IMG/VR virus record: IMGVR_UViG_3300045970_000580
Location: 1 to 24,610 of that record
Direction: 5' to 3' (one strand)
From: a virus
DNA length: 24,610 bases
The notes under the pieces were generated by a model. The model had not been told where the DNA came from, did not search any database, and saw only the letters and a program-made list of their open reading frames with translations. Position numbers and translations under genes: made by a program. Positions 5,095 through 14,188 of the stretch are shown one piece after another (the stretch's first letter is position 1; each line of letters begins with the position of its first letter).

Positions 5095-8088
5095 TTACAT
5101 TGGTCCTTCTGCTGGTGGCATTTCTCCACCACCTATATCTTCACCGCCACCCATATCACCACCCATATCTTCTCCACCACCCATATCCGCCATATTTCCT
5201 AAATCGGATGATATACCGCTTGGTGATACTCCTACACTACGTAAATTTGGATCTTCTGGTTTAGCAACATCGGTATCTGCATGTTCCTCGGCCCATAACT
5301 GTTCGTTTTCTTGCATTTCTTCTTCTGATAAACCCAAGTACCTAGTCAGTATAAATCGTTTAGCCAAGTATGGGAATTGTTCTATTTGTGTAAATGACTG
5401 TATTCTAGCCGTATCAATATCGGCCTGACGGTATTTTGTAAAGTTTTGCGGTTCATTAAATTTTAAATCAAACACACTAGCGTCTATGTTGATACCACGG
5501 AATCGCATAAACAACTTAAATTCTCGATCTAAGGTTGTCGCCATTGCATTCTGCAATCTAACACAATACTGATTAAACCGCCATTCTTGAATCATGGCCA
5601 TACCAACTTTACCATCAGAATAAGTATTTTGTGCTTCATCTGTTTGTGTCGGCAAATAACTACTTGGTATTTTTAAACCACGGAACATTTTATTTGTGAA
5701 AAAACGGAGATCTGAAATTTCGCCTAAATTCGAATTGAAATTCATAACTCCGCAATCAAGAGCAAATGTATGATAATTGTGGTACTTTTCGTCTACATCA
5801 ATAGTAAGTGTACCTACTTCTATCGGGGAATCCAAATACTCAATAGATATAATTTTGTGATTAAATAATTCGGCTTCTTTTCTAAATTGCCTCCAGTTCT
5901 TGTAACCATGGCGTGTTACTCCTACTTTTAATTGCGACTCGGTAATCCCTGTTTTATCCCAATTTGCAGATTTTGTATCTTTATTGATACCTAAGTAATA
6001 GCTCACAAACTCAGAATCAGCATTAAGTTTGTCAACTAATGTCCTAGTATTTTCTTGATGCGATGTTTTTCCTAAAAGCATAGATTGTATTTTAGCTAAT
6101 ACCGTATTATCAAATTTTACTTCTTGATTAGCATAATACTTTTCGCGAGTGCCTTCTGCATTCATAAATTTTGAAGATGCTTTGCCTATTTTGTTATTTC
6201 TTTCTTCGTACTCTTCAGTACCTCTAAATTTATCCCAACCTTCCTTTTGCGCAGTAGTAAATTTATCATAGAATTCGGGGTCAGTCTGTAACATCTCGTT
6301 TAACTTAGTATTGACAATTTTAAATGCTTTTCTAGAATTTTGAGCCCTAATTTCTCTATCTTCATCAGATAAGTTTGCTACATAATTACTAATACCTGTT
6401 GAAATACCATCACATCTATGTTTATATTCTTCATCTGAATGATTTTCCCAAATTTCGTGCATATTTTGACTGTGATAATAAATATGATCTTTAGCAGACA
6501 TAAAACATAGATTTTCAGGAGTATTATTATATCTGTCAAAATCCTTATGGTGTCTTACTTCATAATTCCCATTGCTATAATCGGGGTTGCATACTTCATA
6601 TTTCACCAACGTATCTTTAAAATAATCAGCAACCATTTGGTGTGTAAATACCCATTCTTTTGTTGCGGTATCATAAACTTGTTCATAGTCTTTGCGCAGA
6701 TTGGTTATTTTTAATGTACGGCGATTATGTGGTATCATACTTTCACCAATAGACAATTGGTCTGCGCGTAATGTCCCTTTGCCAATAATAGGGAACTTAT
6801 GATCGGGAGTAACAATCATATCTTTTCCATTATCTAAAGTAATTTTCATAACTTTTGCAGACTTTTGTGTTACTCCAGCCCAACTTACTATACCAGGTAC
6901 GATATGACCGTTTTCTGGATTACATGAATATACCCAGTTTTCTTTGCCATTTTTATATTCTTCGGTCATCTCAGTCAATGTTAAAGTTCTACCATCTAAT
7001 AACGGAACTTTCGTATCCATAGTTAAACAGCCACCGGGAAGTATGCTAACATCAGAGCCTTTTCCTTCTGATGAAACCGGAAAGAAAAAGTCTTCATTCT
7101 GACTGATCGGATTATAGGTCGCATCCATCATATTTTGCCCATTGCCGCTGTGCGTTGGAATCCTACGTTGATGAACTTCATTTTTAACTCGTTCAACAAA
7201 GGCCATAGCCAAGTGTGCTGGCATTCCACCCACATCAATTTTAAATATCCTACGTTCTGGGGCACGTTGTATGCGATATATTAGAATTGACTCTTCTAAC
7301 ATTTCTTTTTGTTTAAATACTTTAAATATATTTTCTAATACTGAGTTACCAAATGGCCATGCTGCATCTAATCCCTCACCCAATGATATATGTACCACAT
7401 GCTCTGCGTTGATCACCGACTCGTTTTTTGCATTAGAAAATCTTGATCCACCACCTGCCCCGGTTACTGCCGGAGTGTATGATCCACCAGGATTGCCAAT
7501 TGCAGGCCGATTCATATAAGTATCCGATGTTGTAACTGCGGTCACTGTTAAATTTTGTAGATTGACATTTAATTCTTTCAAAACGTATTGTTCTGGAGAT
7601 TTACCATCAGATTCATTCACTATGACTTTAGTTACCTTAGACATTTCAGTCCATAGTAATTTAAACGTTTCTGGATCTCGGACGAACACTTGATCCCCAT
7701 ACTTCACACAGTTACGGAATAACTTAAAGATACGTTTATCAAATTGATTTAGTTTATACCACTGTCTTAACTGCTCTTTGATGATTTTAATTTCATTATC
7801 GGTTGGTTTTTCATTGAATTCGATATTAAATGCGGTTCCATTTTCTACGTTAGTTTGCGTTGAGAATTCAGCCAATATATCTAATGCAGCTGATACTTCG
7901 GAATCTTGGTCCATTTGCTCGTATTGGTTATATCGTTCAATACGGTTCGGGTGTCCTACATACACATCTGGTAATTGAGATTGATAATTCTTAACCCCAA
8001 AAGAGGCTGAAGAGTCACTTGTATTTCCGCTGATTGGACTTAGTGAAGTTCCAGGTATTGCAGATTTAAAATGTTTGCGCCACGTCAT
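5095..8088 (-). CDS. 20: Portal vertex protein gp20, interrupted in-frame by an intein
   Basis: Portal ring of the head: nucleates prohead assembly and is the DNA gate. The 997-codon frame is two exteins around a 432-residue intein. The N-extein (1-353) includes DVYVGHPNRIERYNQYEQMD and the conserved run up to DVSILPGG. The C-extein (786-997) resumes SNLGEISDLRFFTNKMFRGL, so splicing restores the highly conserved gp20 stretch LPGG-x-NLGEI. The spliced protein is 565 residues, in the range of T4-like portals (T4: 524). The C-terminus is a Met/Gly/Glu-rich tail (GGGEDMGGDMGGGEDIGGGE). ATG at 8086-8088 with AAGGA upstream, and a late promoter CATAAATA at 8111-8118. It heads the head operon, as in T4. 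Confidence 0.95.
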   Translation of the reverse strand: MTWRKHFKSAIPGTSLSPISGNTSDSSASFGVKNYQSQLPDVYVGHPNRIERYNQYEQMDQDSEVSAALDILAEFSTQTNVENGTAFNIEFNEKPTDNEIKIIKEQLRQWYKLNQFDKRIFKLFRNCVKYGDQVFVRDPETFKLLWTEMSKVTKVIVNESDGKSPEQYVLKELNVNLQNLTVTAVTTSDTYMNRPAIGNPGGSYTPAVTGAGGGSRFSNAKNESVINAEHVVHISLGEGLDAAWPFGNSVLENIFKVFKQKEMLEESILIYRIQRAPERRIFKIDVGGMPAHLAMAFVERVKNEVHQRRIPTHSGNGQNMMDATYNPISQNEDFFFPVSSEGKGSDVSILPGGCLTMDTKVPLLDGRTLTLTEMTEEYKNGKENWVYSCNPENGHIVPGIVSWAGVTQKSAKVMKITLDNGKDMIVTPDHKFPIIGKGTLRADQLSIGESMIPHNRRTLKITNLRKDYEQVYDTATKEWVFTHQMVADYFKDTLVKYEVCNPDYSNGNYEVRHHKDFDRYNNTPENLCFMSAKDHIYYHSQNMHEIWENHSDEEYKHRCDGISTGISNYVANLSDEDREIRAQNSRKAFKIVNTKLNEMLQTDPEFYDKFTTAQKEGWDKFRGTEEYEERNNKIGKASSKFMNAEGTREKYYANQEVKFDNTVLAKIQSMLLGKTSHQENTRTLVDKLNADSEFVSYYLGINKDTKSANWDKTGITESQLKVGVTRHGYKNWRQFRKEAELFNHKIISIEYLDSPIEVGTLTIDVDEKYHNYHTFALDCGVMNFNSNLGEISDLRFFTNKMFRGLKIPSSYLPTQTDEAQNTYSDGKVGMAMIQEWRFNQYCVRLQNAMATTLDREFKLFMRFRGINIDASVFDLKFNEPQNFTKYRQADIDTARIQSFTQIEQFPYLAKRFILTRYLGLSEEEMQENEQLWAEEHADTDVAKPEDPNLRSVGVSPSGISSDLGNMADMGGGEDMGGDMGGGEDIGGGEMPPAEGPM
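5734..7029 (-). mobile_element. Intein with HNH-type homing endonuclease in gp20
   Basis: 432 codons, residues 354-785 of the gp20 frame. Block A: CLTMDTKVPLLDG starting with the nucleophile Cys1. Block B: MIVTPDHKF with the TxxH motif. Middle: VRHHKDFDRYNNTPENL...DHIYYH (His at 513/514), an HNH-like nuclease core, then a helical, possibly DNA-binding stretch. Block F/G: VGTLTIDVDEKYHNY, then CGVMNFN ending in the cyclising Asn785; the +1 extein residue is Ser. The penultimate residue is Phe, not the usual His, so C-terminal cleavage may be slower or depend on another residue. It is inserted in the most conserved part of the portal (LPGG|SNLGEI), as expected for an intein that must splice to persist. 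Confidence 0.93.
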
Positions 8089-11425: not shown

Positions 11426-12271
11426 ATGAACCAGAATAATAACCCATTACAGAAACACTTTCGTCAACCATCAATATATATCCAATTAACGTCTAAAGGA
11501 CAATTTTGGAAGGATGGTGCGGTCGACTTAGGGGTAACCGGAGAACTACCAATTTACCCAATGACAGCAAAAGATGAAGTAACTCTACGCACTCCAGACG
11601 CATTACTAAACGGTACTAGCGTAGTCGATGTTATTCAATCTTGCTGCCCAAATATCAAAAATGCTTGGGAAATGCCTTCGGTAGACGTCGACTCAACATT
11701 GATTGCTATACGTATCGCAAGCTATGGTCAAAGTATGGGTGTCACATCTAAATGCCCAAAATGTAACGAAGAACACGATTACGATATAGATTTGCATAAC
11801 GTATTAGCACAGATTAGAATGCCAGATTATAATAAGACATTGACTACAACCGACGGATTAGTAATCAAATTTAAACCCATTAACTATTTACAGGTTTCAA
11901 AAGCAGCCGGGATCGTATTCGAAGAAGAGAAGTTGATTAGGGCATTAGCCGATACAACTACAGATGAAGAGGTACGCAAACTCGATTTCGCCAAACGTGT
12001 AGATAATATGGTGAATCTAAATAATGAGAATATCACTAACGCAACCGAAAGTATTACCGCAGAAGGAACTATAGTATCCGACCCAAAATTCATCAGCGAA
12101 TACTATCAGAATGCGCAAGGTAGTGTATTACGCGAGGTGCAAGATATGATTAAGCAATTTTCAGAAGAAGTTAGCATTAAACCTATTGATACGTTATGTA
12201 CTTCTTGCAATCACGAGTTTAAATTGAATGTGGAATTTGATTACTCGCATTTTTTCGCCAAAGGCTCTTAA
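11426..12271 (+). CDS. 26: Baseplate hub/assembly protein gp26-like
   Basis: A 281-residue protein resembling the T4 gp26 family of baseplate hub assembly proteins. It opens with a conserved segment (QPSIYIQLTSKGQFWKDGAV, then ELPIYPMTAKDEVTLRTPDA). It has two CxxC pairs, C110-P-K-C113 and C258-T-S-C261, that probably form one zinc ribbon. The ATG follows AAAAGGAC at a good distance and lies downstream of a perfect late promoter. The gene ends TAA at 12269-12271, but a canonical -1 slippery heptamer sits five codons earlier (12250-12256), joining it to the gp51-like frame. It is divergent from the tape-measure-like gene, which fits a tail-assembly chaperone role. Family assignment is from memory of gp26 homologues; T4 gp26 is shorter (about 208 aa). 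Confidence 0.8.
   Translation: MNQNNNPLQKHFRQPSIYIQLTSKGQFWKDGAVDLGVTGELPIYPMTAKDEVTLRTPDALLNGTSVVDVIQSCCPNIKNAWEMPSVDVDSTLIAIRIASYGQSMGVTSKCPKCNEEHDYDIDLHNVLAQIRMPDYNKTLTTTDGLVIKFKPINYLQVSKAAGIVFEEEKLIRALADTTTDEEVRKLDFAKRVDNMVNLNNENITNATESITAEGTIVSDPKFISEYYQNAQGSVLREVQDMIKQFSEEVSIKPIDTLCTSCNHEFKLNVEFDYSHFFAKGS
12250..12256 (+). other. Putative -1 ribosomal frameshift site
   Basis: T TTT TTC in the gp26 reading frame (codons TTT TTC, residues 276-277) fits X XXY YYZ. Both Phe codons re-pair to TTT in the -1 frame. The -1 frame then stays open for 76 codons to TAA at 12484-12486. Small hairpins follow: CGAT-GAA-ATCG (12282-12292) and the perfect ATCTAT-TTG-ATAGAT (12296-12310). Confidence 0.7.
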
Positions 12272-12486
12272 CACTCAGCAACGATGAAATCGTAAATCTA
12301 TTTGATAGATACGAGAAAGAGATTAAGGCCGTAAAAGAAGAATCATTTCGTTTATCGTGGTATATGAGAGGTGGACTCGATATGGGAGATTCTATGTTAT
12401 TGAGTAATCAAGACAAAGAAATTCTAAATAAAATCATATCAGAAAACCTAGAGATTTCGAAAAAGTCAGGATTACCATTTTTTTAA
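12256..12486 (+). CDS. 51: gp51-like domain, read by -1 frameshift from gp26
   Basis: A 76-codon open frame encodes RQRLLTLSNDEIVNLF, a charged helix (DRYEKEIKAVKEES), the signature WYMRGG, and a helical end closing in KKSGLPFF. WYMRGG followed by an acidic helix and an NIE.TK.S.MP-type end is, as I recall, the pattern of the short gp51-type baseplate hub assembly protein that follows gp26 in marine T4-like phages. The frame has no ATG, GTG or TTG between its upstream stop (TGA at 12238-12240) and the ATG at 12364, which would cut the protein through WYMRGG and lacks a ribosome binding site. The likely product is therefore a 353-residue gp26-gp51 fusion made by -1 slippage after residue 277. 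A terminator follows 20 bases after the stop. Confidence 0.75.
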   Translation, partial: RQRLLTLSNDEIVNLFDRYEKEIKAVKEESFRLSWYMRGGLDMGDSMLLSNQDKEILNKIISENLEISKKSGLPFF

Positions 12487-12505
12487 TTTGAAATATTTTA
12501 GAGTT

Positions 12506-12534
12506 AAGGTTGTAGAAATACAACCTTTTCTTTT
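12506..12534 (+). terminator. Rho-independent terminator of gp26/gp51
   Basis: Perfect 9-bp stem AAGGTTGTA / TACAACCTT closed by a GAAA tetraloop (12506-12527), followed by TTCTTTT. It is 20 bases after the gp51-frame stop. On the other strand there is no U-run, so it acts rightward only. Confidence 0.88.
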
Positions 12535-12600
12535 GCCTAACTAGATACCTTTTCTACTCGTGGTATACCATTTATGTAATAATTGATTGATTTACTATTA

Positions 12601-12651
12601 GTTGTCTTTCGCTTTGCTCAATCCAACTGTATTTTCGCTATCGCTCAATAC
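12601..12651 (-). repeat. Twin tandem-G.A hairpins
   Basis: Two adjacent related hairpins, separated by one base. On the minus strand, 12629-12651 reads GTATT-GA-GC-GATA-GC-GA-A-AATAC and 12601-12627 reads GTTG-GA-TT-GA-GC-AAA-GC-GA-AA-GA-CAAC. Outer stems differ but pair (GTATT/AATAC versus GTTG/CAAC), while the GA opposite GA internal loops are kept. This looks like a duplicated RNA module with compensatory change. Confidence 0.6.
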
Positions 12652-12766
12652 GTTTTCTTTTCTTTCTTACTGTAAATTGTTATGGTAATTCTATTAGCTA
12701 ATACATGACTGCTATTATTTGCTTTTGCTTTTAAGGATGCTATCTAACCAGAGCATAGCACACAAA

Positions 12767-12833
12767 TATAAGATGGATTTTAAAAAAAGAACCTGTCAGG
12801 CAAGTCTCCAGAATTTTTAAAATACATCTTATA
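12767..12833 (-). other. Long stem-loop within the noncoding region
   Basis: Arms 12767-12785 and 12815-12833 pair over 19 positions with one mismatch (TATAAGATG.ATTTTAAAA-type arm). The 29-base loop contains the small palindrome CCTGACAGG. Directly abutting it, 12833-12840 can pair with 13033-13040 (GAGCTCGT/ACGAGCTC), which would stack the two helices. Confidence 0.65.
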
Positions 12834-13410
12834 CGAGCTCTAACCGTCACAAGCATCAACTCTGAAATTATATGCCAAAAGATGATCATTCGTTCCTCAT
12901 CTCTATCTCCTACTTATATCACGTGTAACCGTGTCGCTGTTCAGGCGTCGAAGATTTCTGGGCTATGGAGGGGATTGACTATGTCATTCCAGACTGTATT
13001 ACTACAGTTTCCAGGCGTGTCGTCTGTTTTATGAGCTCGTCGTTGACACTTGCTCCAGACCCGGTAGGATTAGCGTTATTATGAACTACCGGCCACTTTT
13101 ATTTAACCTTATTCTAGTATTAAATATTTACTAGTCAAATCAATTCAATCATCAACGTTCTATACTTTTTATAAGGTGGTAACCTTAAAGGACTGCTCAT
13201 CGCAGTATACTAGATCGAGCTGATACTCTTAAGGCAGGGGCGCACAACATGAAGAGGCACGTGCCATCTAGATATACTTCGGACTCTAGACAGATCCAAT
13301 AATCAGTTAAATAACGGTACTACTTTAAGGGTTCTGTATTTTATTATGAGATGGTCTCTGGGTATTGCTTAGGTAAATTATTGACATGGTGTCTGGTGAT
13401 GCGTTTTATC

Positions 13411-13689
13411 TTAATGCTTTCGTAATGCAACTGGGGTAGATCGTTTTCGTTTTCCAGTTTTTGGTGTGTGTTTAATATTAGCTAACACCTTTAAATCATA
13501 TTCAGTTGGCTTATGTACCGTCATAGACTTATTAGATGTTAATTCCATCATTTTGTTATTTATTAACCTAACTTTGTCCTCTTCGGTTATACTCAAATCT
13601 TTCGACATCAAACATTTGACGTGAAATTCTGCTTGCCTAAGTATCTGTATGGCTATATATTGTTTTTCTGTAAGTTTAGTTTTTTTCAT
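13411..13689 (-). CDS. Small basic protein of unknown function
   Basis: A 92-residue protein if read from the ATG at 13687-13689 (MKKTKLTEKQYIAIQILRQA); an earlier in-frame ATG at 13711-13713 would add eight residues. Neither start has a clear ribosome binding site. The later start is preferred for its natural-looking N-terminus and shorter overlap (14 bases) with the upstream nuclease gene. The protein is helical in the first two thirds and ends in a basic, unstructured segment (KTGKRKRSTPVALRKH), which suggests nucleic-acid contact. It is the last gene of the minus-strand operon before the structured noncoding region. I recognise no family. Confidence 0.6.
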   Translation of the reverse strand: MKKTKLTEKQYIAIQILRQAEFHVKCLMSKDLSITEEDKVRLINNKMMELTSNKSMTVHKPTEYDLKVLANIKHTPKTGKRKRSTPVALRKH

Positions 13690-14188
13690 TTGGTAGTGTA
13701 AAAAATATCCCATCTGGTAATGTCAGCATATCCGCCAACTTATATATATTGTACTTGTCTTTATAAACAAAAAGCAAGGGTAATTCTAATTTCTGGTTAA
13801 GAAAGATTATTTCTTCAATACCGTTATACTTAACAATCAATAACATCTCTTTTTTGCTATTTTCGGCATCCTGAGATGCTTGTTTTAACCAACCGTCCCA
13901 TTGAGTAATCTCACCTTTCACTATAGAAGCAAATGATGGTCCAGACTTATAGAATTTACACTCAATGGAAAACTTGAAATTATCGGGACAAATAATATCA
14001 CCAAAATGCGCATGAGTTAAATCATGTGTCTCTTTACGCCTTTGATTAGATCCACCAAAATAGGAACCCGAATCTGAGTTCCTAATGAAGGATTTTTCGA
14101 GTTTGGTGATATCCTTGAAACGTGCAGAAAGCAAATTTGCGATCTTTCTTTCCTGCGAATTCCCCTTATTTTTTCCGTTCACTCCCAC
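13676..14188 (-). CDS. PD-(D/E)XK nuclease, Holliday-junction-resolvase-like
   Basis: A 170-residue protein with the layout of a small PD-(D/E)XK nuclease. N-terminal KGNSQERKIANLLSARF contains the helix glutamate; then HFGDIICPD supplies the metal-binding Asp; then FSIECKFY supplies the E-x-K pair. Small enzymes of this pattern in phages cut branched DNA or act as resolvases. That would fit with gp46/gp47 recombination functions upstream, but the substrate is not shown by the sequence. The start is GTG at 14186-14188, directly after the TAA of the preceding gene. It is supported by AAGAAGG eight bases upstream, and the two genes are probably translationally coupled. It overlaps the next gene slightly. 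Confidence 0.72.
   Translation of the reverse strand: MGVNGKNKGNSQERKIANLLSARFKDITKLEKSFIRNSDSGSYFGGSNQRRKETHDLTHAHFGDIICPDNFKFSIECKFYKSGPSFASIVKGEITQWDGWLKQASQDAENSKKEMLLIVKYNGIEEIIFLNQKLELPLLFVYKDKYNIYKLADMLTLPDGIFFTLPNEKN

Follow-up and report, generated by a model that had tools for sequence, protein, structure and literature searches.

A candidate structured RNA of about 750 nucleotides in the gap beyond the baseplate hub gene of T4-like phages

What does a phage keep in a long stretch of DNA that carries no genes? Such a gap lies at positions 12541-13400 of a T4-like phage contig from IMG/VR, which was analysed over its whole length of 24,610 bases (the window). The initial annotation had described the gap as free of ORFs and had proposed that it encodes a long structured RNA, with features favouring the minus strand. 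We find that the gap very probably does hold such an RNA, of about 750 nt, with a fold kept among related phages, a 5′ domain of its own and a 3′ module shared with commoner RNA types. With the same confidence, the locus appears to hold structured RNA in most of the phages of the T4-like group that were examined.

The gap and its relatives

The window has the gene set of a T4-like myovirus, with major head protein, head protease, portal, baseplate hub, gp46/47-like nuclease and late sigma factor; the RNA locus is labelled gp51 here. The portal gene (5095-8088, minus strand) encodes 997 aa and includes an HNH endonuclease-like stretch at residues 490-551, which is probably an intein or an inserted endonuclease. 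The plus-strand frame following the hub gene runs to 12486. Between its end and the minus-strand gene at 13411-13713 no ORF exceeds 50 aa, which confirms the gap described in the initial annotation. The longest ORFs inside the gap measure 49 aa (12740-12889, minus strand) and 50 aa (12882-13034, plus strand); neither is supported. The genes upstream of the RNA on the minus strand are a PDDEXK/RusA-like gene and a gene of 100 aa.

Taken alone, the window sequence says little. Folded as a single sequence, the minus strand gave a z score of -1.72 with 1 of 20 shuffles as good, which is weak; the plus strand gave 0.49, with 13 of 20 shuffles as good. The many stems noticed at the outset do exist, as 15 perfect 8-mer inverted pairs, but their number is not above chance (mean 8.1, maximum 18 in 200 mononucleotide shuffles). 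Likewise, the 8-bp helix singled out between 12833-12840 and 13033-13040 is present exactly as described, but it is not above chance and is not among the helices of the relatives. Judged on sequence, it is the comparison with relatives that settles the case for a structured RNA, not single-sequence folding.

The hub protein was used as bait and 25 loci were fetched. A search with the window alone (nhmmer) located a nucleotide homologue of the gap in L004, on the same strand and at the same place (E 1e-19). A profile of these two sequences identified further homologues in the L230/L231/L237/L243 group and in L238. Scanning viral contigs with the pattern CTGCGATGAGCAGTCC returned 24 stretches, in which L256 and L263 were the sole new homologues besides L230, L231, L235, L237 and L243. 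A blastn search of the window region against 50,697 phage records gave short chance matches only. The window type thus comprises five distinct sequences (the window, L004, L237, L263 and L256), aligned as A4, which omits the duplicates L230, L231 and L243 as well as L238, a near-duplicate. In these relatives the RNA is on the strand opposite to the gp26-like hub gene and beyond the end of that gene. We note a single in-frame TAA within the matched part of the hub gene in the L230/L237/L238 group (L248-L252).

A structure of 28 pairs was drawn by hand on A4 (Table 1). Changes on both sides of a pair are seen in 14 of the 28 pairs and in 20 cells, against shuffle means of 4.8 and 5.6, and none of 500 shuffles was as high. 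In all, 97.1% of cells are paired (shuffle mean 85.4%), a figure that is inflated because the structure was drawn by eye on the very five sequences on which it is counted; both-sided change is harder to obtain in this way. Sliding the partners by 1-3 columns lowers pairing to 26-45%. Unguided RNAalifold on A4 predicted 88 pairs, 32 of them with both-sided change, and recovered helices 1, 3, 4 and 5; it pairs the columns of H2 otherwise than our drawing. H3 illustrates the pattern, reading CUAGUAU/AUACUAG in the window, CUAAUGC/GCAUUAG in L256 and CUAACAC/GUGUUAG in L263. H4 is identical in all five sequences and is therefore uninformative on pairing, either way. H1, H3 and H5 each contain one wobble cell in the minus-strand reading; these would be A-C mismatches if read on the other strand.

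Table 1 Positions of the hub gene, the candidate RNA and its parts in the window
Feature	Position	Strand	Basis
gp26-like baseplate hub gene	11426-12271	+	phrog_150 baseplate hub, E 4.9e-19; locus marker in relatives
Candidate structured noncoding RNA	12600-13360 (approximate)	-	Homology to L004, L237, L263 and L256 over its extent; covariation
GAGACCATCTC hairpin, 5′ end	13348-13358	-	In 5/5 window-type sequences; aligned L263 copy is GAGACAAACTC
Helix H1	13285-13290 with 13267-13272	-	Both-sided change in 4/6 pairs (five sequences); 86.7% of cells paired
Helix H2	13226-13228 with 13217-13219	-	Middle pair A-U, C-G or U-A depending on the phage
Long-range helix H3, spanning 100 bases	13207-13213 with 13114-13120	-	Both-sided change in 4/7 pairs; 100% of cells paired
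Hairpin H4, ACTGC-GATGA-GCAGT	13192-13206	-	Invariant in 5/5
Helix H5	13086-13092 with 13061-13067	-	Both-sided change in 5/7 pairs; 100% paired
Hairpin H6, GTAA loop	12993-13008	-	6/6 pairs; differently lettered hairpins at the same position in 5/5 window-type sequences
Conserved motif GACATAGTCAATCCCC	12970-12985	-	Kept in the window, L004 and L237; altered at a few positions in L263 and L256
3′ tail module	12629-12683	-	A-rich stretch, then stem - GA - GC(NNNN)GC - GAA - stem; hairpin at 12629-12651
Second tail-like hairpin GAGCAAAGCGAA	12607-12620	-	Pattern match; 5.3 bits with model R1, weak

The two minus-strand elements picked out in the initial annotation, the GTAA-loop hairpin H6 and the tandem G.A element in the hairpin of the tail, proved real, and the compensatory changes in homologues at the same locus support its proposal of a long structured RNA on this strand. 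The GTAA loop is of the GNRA type, and tandem G.A pairs are likewise an RNA motif. The covariation for which relatives were to be searched is present, and neither a protein-coding nor an intron explanation emerged from them. The GAGACCATCTC hairpin, near which the 5′ end of the RNA would lie, occurs once in the window (0.01 expected) and in just 15 of 190 hits of the commoner types described below.

Commoner RNAs of the locus and the shared tail

Two commoner RNA types, of about 400-470 nt, share both the locus and the 3′ hairpin module with the window RNA. A profile of the type 1 RNA matches around 190 loci, either over its full length (type 1) or over its 3′ half joined to another 5′ domain (type 2). 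The 3′ halves were aligned as A2, which holds 60 of 80 non-redundant type 1/2 sequences; 20, mostly long or low-scoring, were omitted by hand, and the list of 80 was already free of matches that end early or lack a recognisable core. In A2, 96.9% of cells are paired. Of its 20 pairs, 11 are changed on both sides, as are 144 cells; shuffles averaged 7.4 and 42.0, and none of 500 reached these values. At one pair A-U and G-U are exchanged in 23 of the 60 rows.

The position of these RNAs is consistent. Among 104 distinct RNA sequences, fetched by DNA pattern alone with neighbours ignored and only identical RNA sequences removed, the hub gene is on the opposite strand beyond the RNA 3′ end in 75 and otherwise placed in one (L118). 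The fetched piece has no hub gene in the other 28, and in 25 of these it reaches less than 4.5 kb past the RNA on that side. At 30 hub loci the profile found no match. A covariance model of types 1/2 (R1) was applied to 13 of them. It detects either the whole RNA or the tail at L002, L003, L018, L019, L020, L026, L031, L062, L065, L066, L114 and L116; L021 scores only 12 bits. These counts are of hub loci and not of phages, several loci coming from one contig. Searched per phage record, R1 matched 13 of 15, as a rule once in each, including records of about 345 kb; a second match in G016 reaches only 15.3 bits.

Searches with a type 1 and a type 2 RNA (blastn) against the 50,697 phage records gave no matches. 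A 19-base core pattern was also tried on 84,980 bacterial and archaeal genomes and matched 19 times. The type 1 profile fits six of these weakly and around the pattern only, and they were set aside as chance.

Types 1 and 2 (L013, L009 and L208, for example) carry two RGATRAW 7-mers flanking a hairpin. Within every one of the 60 A2 rows the two copies agree, although nine versions occur, against a mean of 9.2 identical rows and a maximum of 17 under shuffled pairing; this count is conditional on the selection of A2, and the rows are related and so do not represent 60 independent events. A looser scan of 121 distinct sequences found identical repeats in 111, with 41 further hits unscored. Of the ten exceptions at least three (L165, L155 and L208) are mis-anchored, the repeats being identical in their A2 rows. 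The 7-mers are direct repeats, so simple pairing between them offers no explanation. A search for a complement in cis revealed none at a constant place. Roughly a dozen type 1 sequences have a G-U-rich match near -98, which we attribute to the conservation of the stretch in which it lies. Two copies that read one partner, or intermolecular RNA-RNA contacts, would explain the identity.

Part of these RNAs is already known under another name. The Rfam motif Polynucleobacter-1 (RF01718) was found in this gap, read on the minus strand, in four of 13 sources searched (L005, L009, L013 and L022). The conserved RNA extends over about 430-470 nt and the 141-position model covers its front only; Polynucleobacter-1, with which type 1 begins, is thus no more than the 5′ section of a longer RNA of phages. 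It is followed by the 3′ tail module that the window RNA shares, but RF01718 has no match in the window, where the 5′ domain is another one. In Burkholderiaceae RF01718 scored above its cut-off in 6 of 398 genomes (L291-L296; listed sizes 1.8-2.2 Mb), and at all six loci the tail comes next, at most a few hundred bases away (R1 19-25.5 bits). The bacterial motif, like that of the phages, is thus the leading section of a longer RNA. At L297 RF01718 falls below the Rfam cut-off and R1 gives 22 bits; at L291 the motif has a DUF6641 gene on one side and a tyrosine integrase on the other. In its table the paper of 2010 in which Polynucleobacter-1 was defined appears to enter a 'y' for the motif under both RNA and cis-regulatory (PMC2864571).

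Run unfiltered on the window, R1 identifies the tail at 12683-12630 on the minus strand with 20.9 bits (E 2.5e-4), a score that is partly due to A-rich sequence; the next best match has 5.9 bits. L004 scores 30.6 bits. L237 and L238 reach only 9.1 bits, and no tail is listed for L263 and L256 at E up to 1, so that the likeness of the tail in these four rests on reading by eye. The inner stem has 2 bp in the window tail, 8 bp in L237 and 5 bp in L263, with GA/GAA kept; L256 has a variant. A second model, R2, built on the window-type 5′ part, gave no match in the 60 sources searched beyond a short hairpin used to fetch some of them, and matched neither sampled type 1/2 members nor cultured isolates. 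With no detectable relation between the 5′ domains, the unity of the family rests on tail, strand and place. The window accordingly has two features of types 1/2, namely the 3′ tail module and the position beyond the end of the hub gene on the opposite strand. The GGTAC-GG-CAACC-CC core and the paired RGATRAW repeats were not encountered in the window, where R1 finds the tail alone. The GACATAGTCAATCCCC motif of the window is at a comparable place and may or may not correspond to the core. Common descent of the window tail and that of types 1/2 is likely from their sequences, and this applies to the tail alone.

Cultured phages and known RNA classes

Homologues of the hub protein occur in 62 of the 50,697 phage records, mostly RaK2-like jumbo phages. 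The same gap in coliphage 121Q has 837 bases and no annotation. Its sequence was found at 163 places in 41 records, four to five per record in most and two in the Klebsiella phages listed. The four sites in 121Q comprise three without annotated genes and a fourth that overlaps a short annotated ORF on the opposite strand; by model, GAP32 and BF have five copies and RaK2 three. Nine sequences of this type support 90 predicted pairs, of which 52 are changed on both sides. A TATAAT-like box is seen upstream of several of these RNAs, and some end, by eye, in a stem and a T run. Over the 521 bases used as query, the RNA of phage Sharanji (listed host E. coli K-12 MG1655) matches its 121Q counterpart with 100% identity. 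Examples of this multi-copy RNA are L301 (5280-5800, minus strand), L305, L307 and L309.

The 121Q-type RNA resembles the window RNA in its position, sharing both the gap and the orientation to the hub gene (121Q, Munch, BF, GAP32, Hallingskeid and XbC2), but it differs in its 3-5 copies per genome by model, and the likeness is one of placement. A model of this RNA, R3, gave no match in the window, in sampled members of types 1-3 or in PA5oct, Phosso and Atu_ph07, and Rfam returned sub-threshold chance matches only. The word TGCGATGAGCA was considered as a sign of homology between the two and was rejected: it is not kept among the relatives of 121Q, and R2 and R3 do not cross-match. In PA5oct about 1.5 kb at the same place (L300, 5525-7039) is nearly gene-free with tiny annotated ORFs only. 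None of the three models matches it convincingly; the stretch may hold yet another RNA. The annotation of Atu_ph07 has no comparable gap, so the rule of an RNA at this locus has exceptions.

The initial annotation had likened the candidate in size to GOLLD and ROOL and had named these, HEARO and group I/II introns as the families to be searched in Rfam. The window gave no match to any of them: there was none at gathering score, chance matches only for 12480-13450 at E up to 10, and none for single regions. The window RNA is thus not a detectable GOLLD, ROOL, HEARO or intron; what stands of the likeness is size and a phage origin. The window RNA and GOLLD are both phage-borne and of similar length. 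GOLLD has a conserved 3′ region and a less conserved 5′ region, which is comparable to the window RNA, and ROOL is large, phage-borne and without a protein, as is the window RNA (PMC12286853). A homo-oligomeric RNA cage is a further trait of GOLLD. tRNA islands are often near GOLLD, whereas the window, a fragment of 24.6 kb, contains no tRNA, which also sets it apart from ROOL.

What the RNA may do

The RNA would be produced at the same time as the minus-strand genes upstream of it, or shortly afterwards; we infer both its transcription and its stability. It would act during infection as an autonomous folded RNA in an architectural or a binding capacity, as supposed for GOLLD and ROOL, and would be neither a guide, an mRNA leader nor a mobile element. 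A large autonomous RNA that acts as RNA, as a scaffold or binder resembling GOLLD or ROOL, is put forward tentatively as its role. Several observations count against our main reading: promoters in the window (7 against 5.2 expected) are not above chance, the minus strand of the scanned region has no terminator-like sites, the single-sequence fold is weak, and the window type has five distinct members, on which the structure was itself drawn. The T4-type late promoter TATAAATA occurs 3 times in the window against 4.4 expected and not once by the RNA.

The RNA may instead be a long structured 3′ UTR, or a processing or stability element, of the upstream minus-strand operon and not a free-standing gene, which we regard as possible if somewhat doubtful. 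In L022 (6426-6860, minus strand) a SegE-like GIY-YIG gene ends at 6426 and a type 1 RNA starts right at its stop codon, running from 6430. No promoter was recognised by inspection in the sequences upstream of type 1 RNAs, and the window has none above chance. Regulatory RNAs are known from bacterial 3′ UTRs (PMC2864571), which also speaks for this reading. Against it, the RNA stays while the upstream gene varies between the pair of genes in the window and GIY-YIG in L022, and the 121Q-like RNA has its own TATAAT-like boxes, in several cases a stem and T run, and recurs elsewhere in the genome. It is also conceivable, though we are inclined to doubt it, that the RNA is a regulatory sponge or decoy that captures in trans a protein or RNA of the host or of the phage, a reading that overlaps with the autonomous role favoured here. 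The identical 7-mer pairs are as expected if one drifting partner is bound by both, and their cis complement at a constant place was not found; the repeats, however, were observed in types 1/2 and not in the window type.

The remaining explanations deny an RNA of this kind altogether or make it mobile. A DNA element, that is an origin or a recombination or packaging site with inverted repeats that mimic RNA stems, would suit a gap between the hub gene and nuclease and gp46/47-like genes, with Endonuclease VII adjoining it in cultured relatives. The wobble pairs of one strand, the persistence of small G.A internal loops and of GNRA-like loops despite sequence change, and the fixed strand relative to the hub all argue against this, and we consider it improbable. 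An intron, HEARO or other mobile RNA element is very improbable: nucleases adjoin the locus in several phages, but there is no Rfam match up to E 10, and the RNA is intergenic and keeps to one place, with a single copy in each phage record for the types that were tested. Least credible of all is leftover, non-functional sequence with chance stems. The weak single-sequence fold and the unremarkable number of 8-bp inverted repeats would agree with it; the homology and the compensatory changes do not.

A broader picture can be drawn, which we offer as a speculation that is possible but far from secure. The gap from the hub gene to the recombination nuclease would be a dedicated RNA locus in much of the T4-like and RaK2-like phages, occupied by a family built of modules, in which the 3′ tail is constant and 5′ domains can be exchanged, and of which the window has a third, larger type. 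Polynucleobacter-1 would be a misread fragment of this family, and the multi-copy coliphage RNA a remote or convergent counterpart. The RNA would be a core machine of infection, either oligomeric or binding one partner at two sites.

Large phage RNAs are known as a kind, and those of undefined role, such as GOLLD and ROOL, are few; this locus adds an RNA in most of the related phages examined. No description of these RNAs was found in the open-licence literature searched, so the RNA type at the locus appears new in that literature. Since 121Q and Sharanji are cultured and carry an RNA at the same place, the role of large phage RNAs is directly testable in them.
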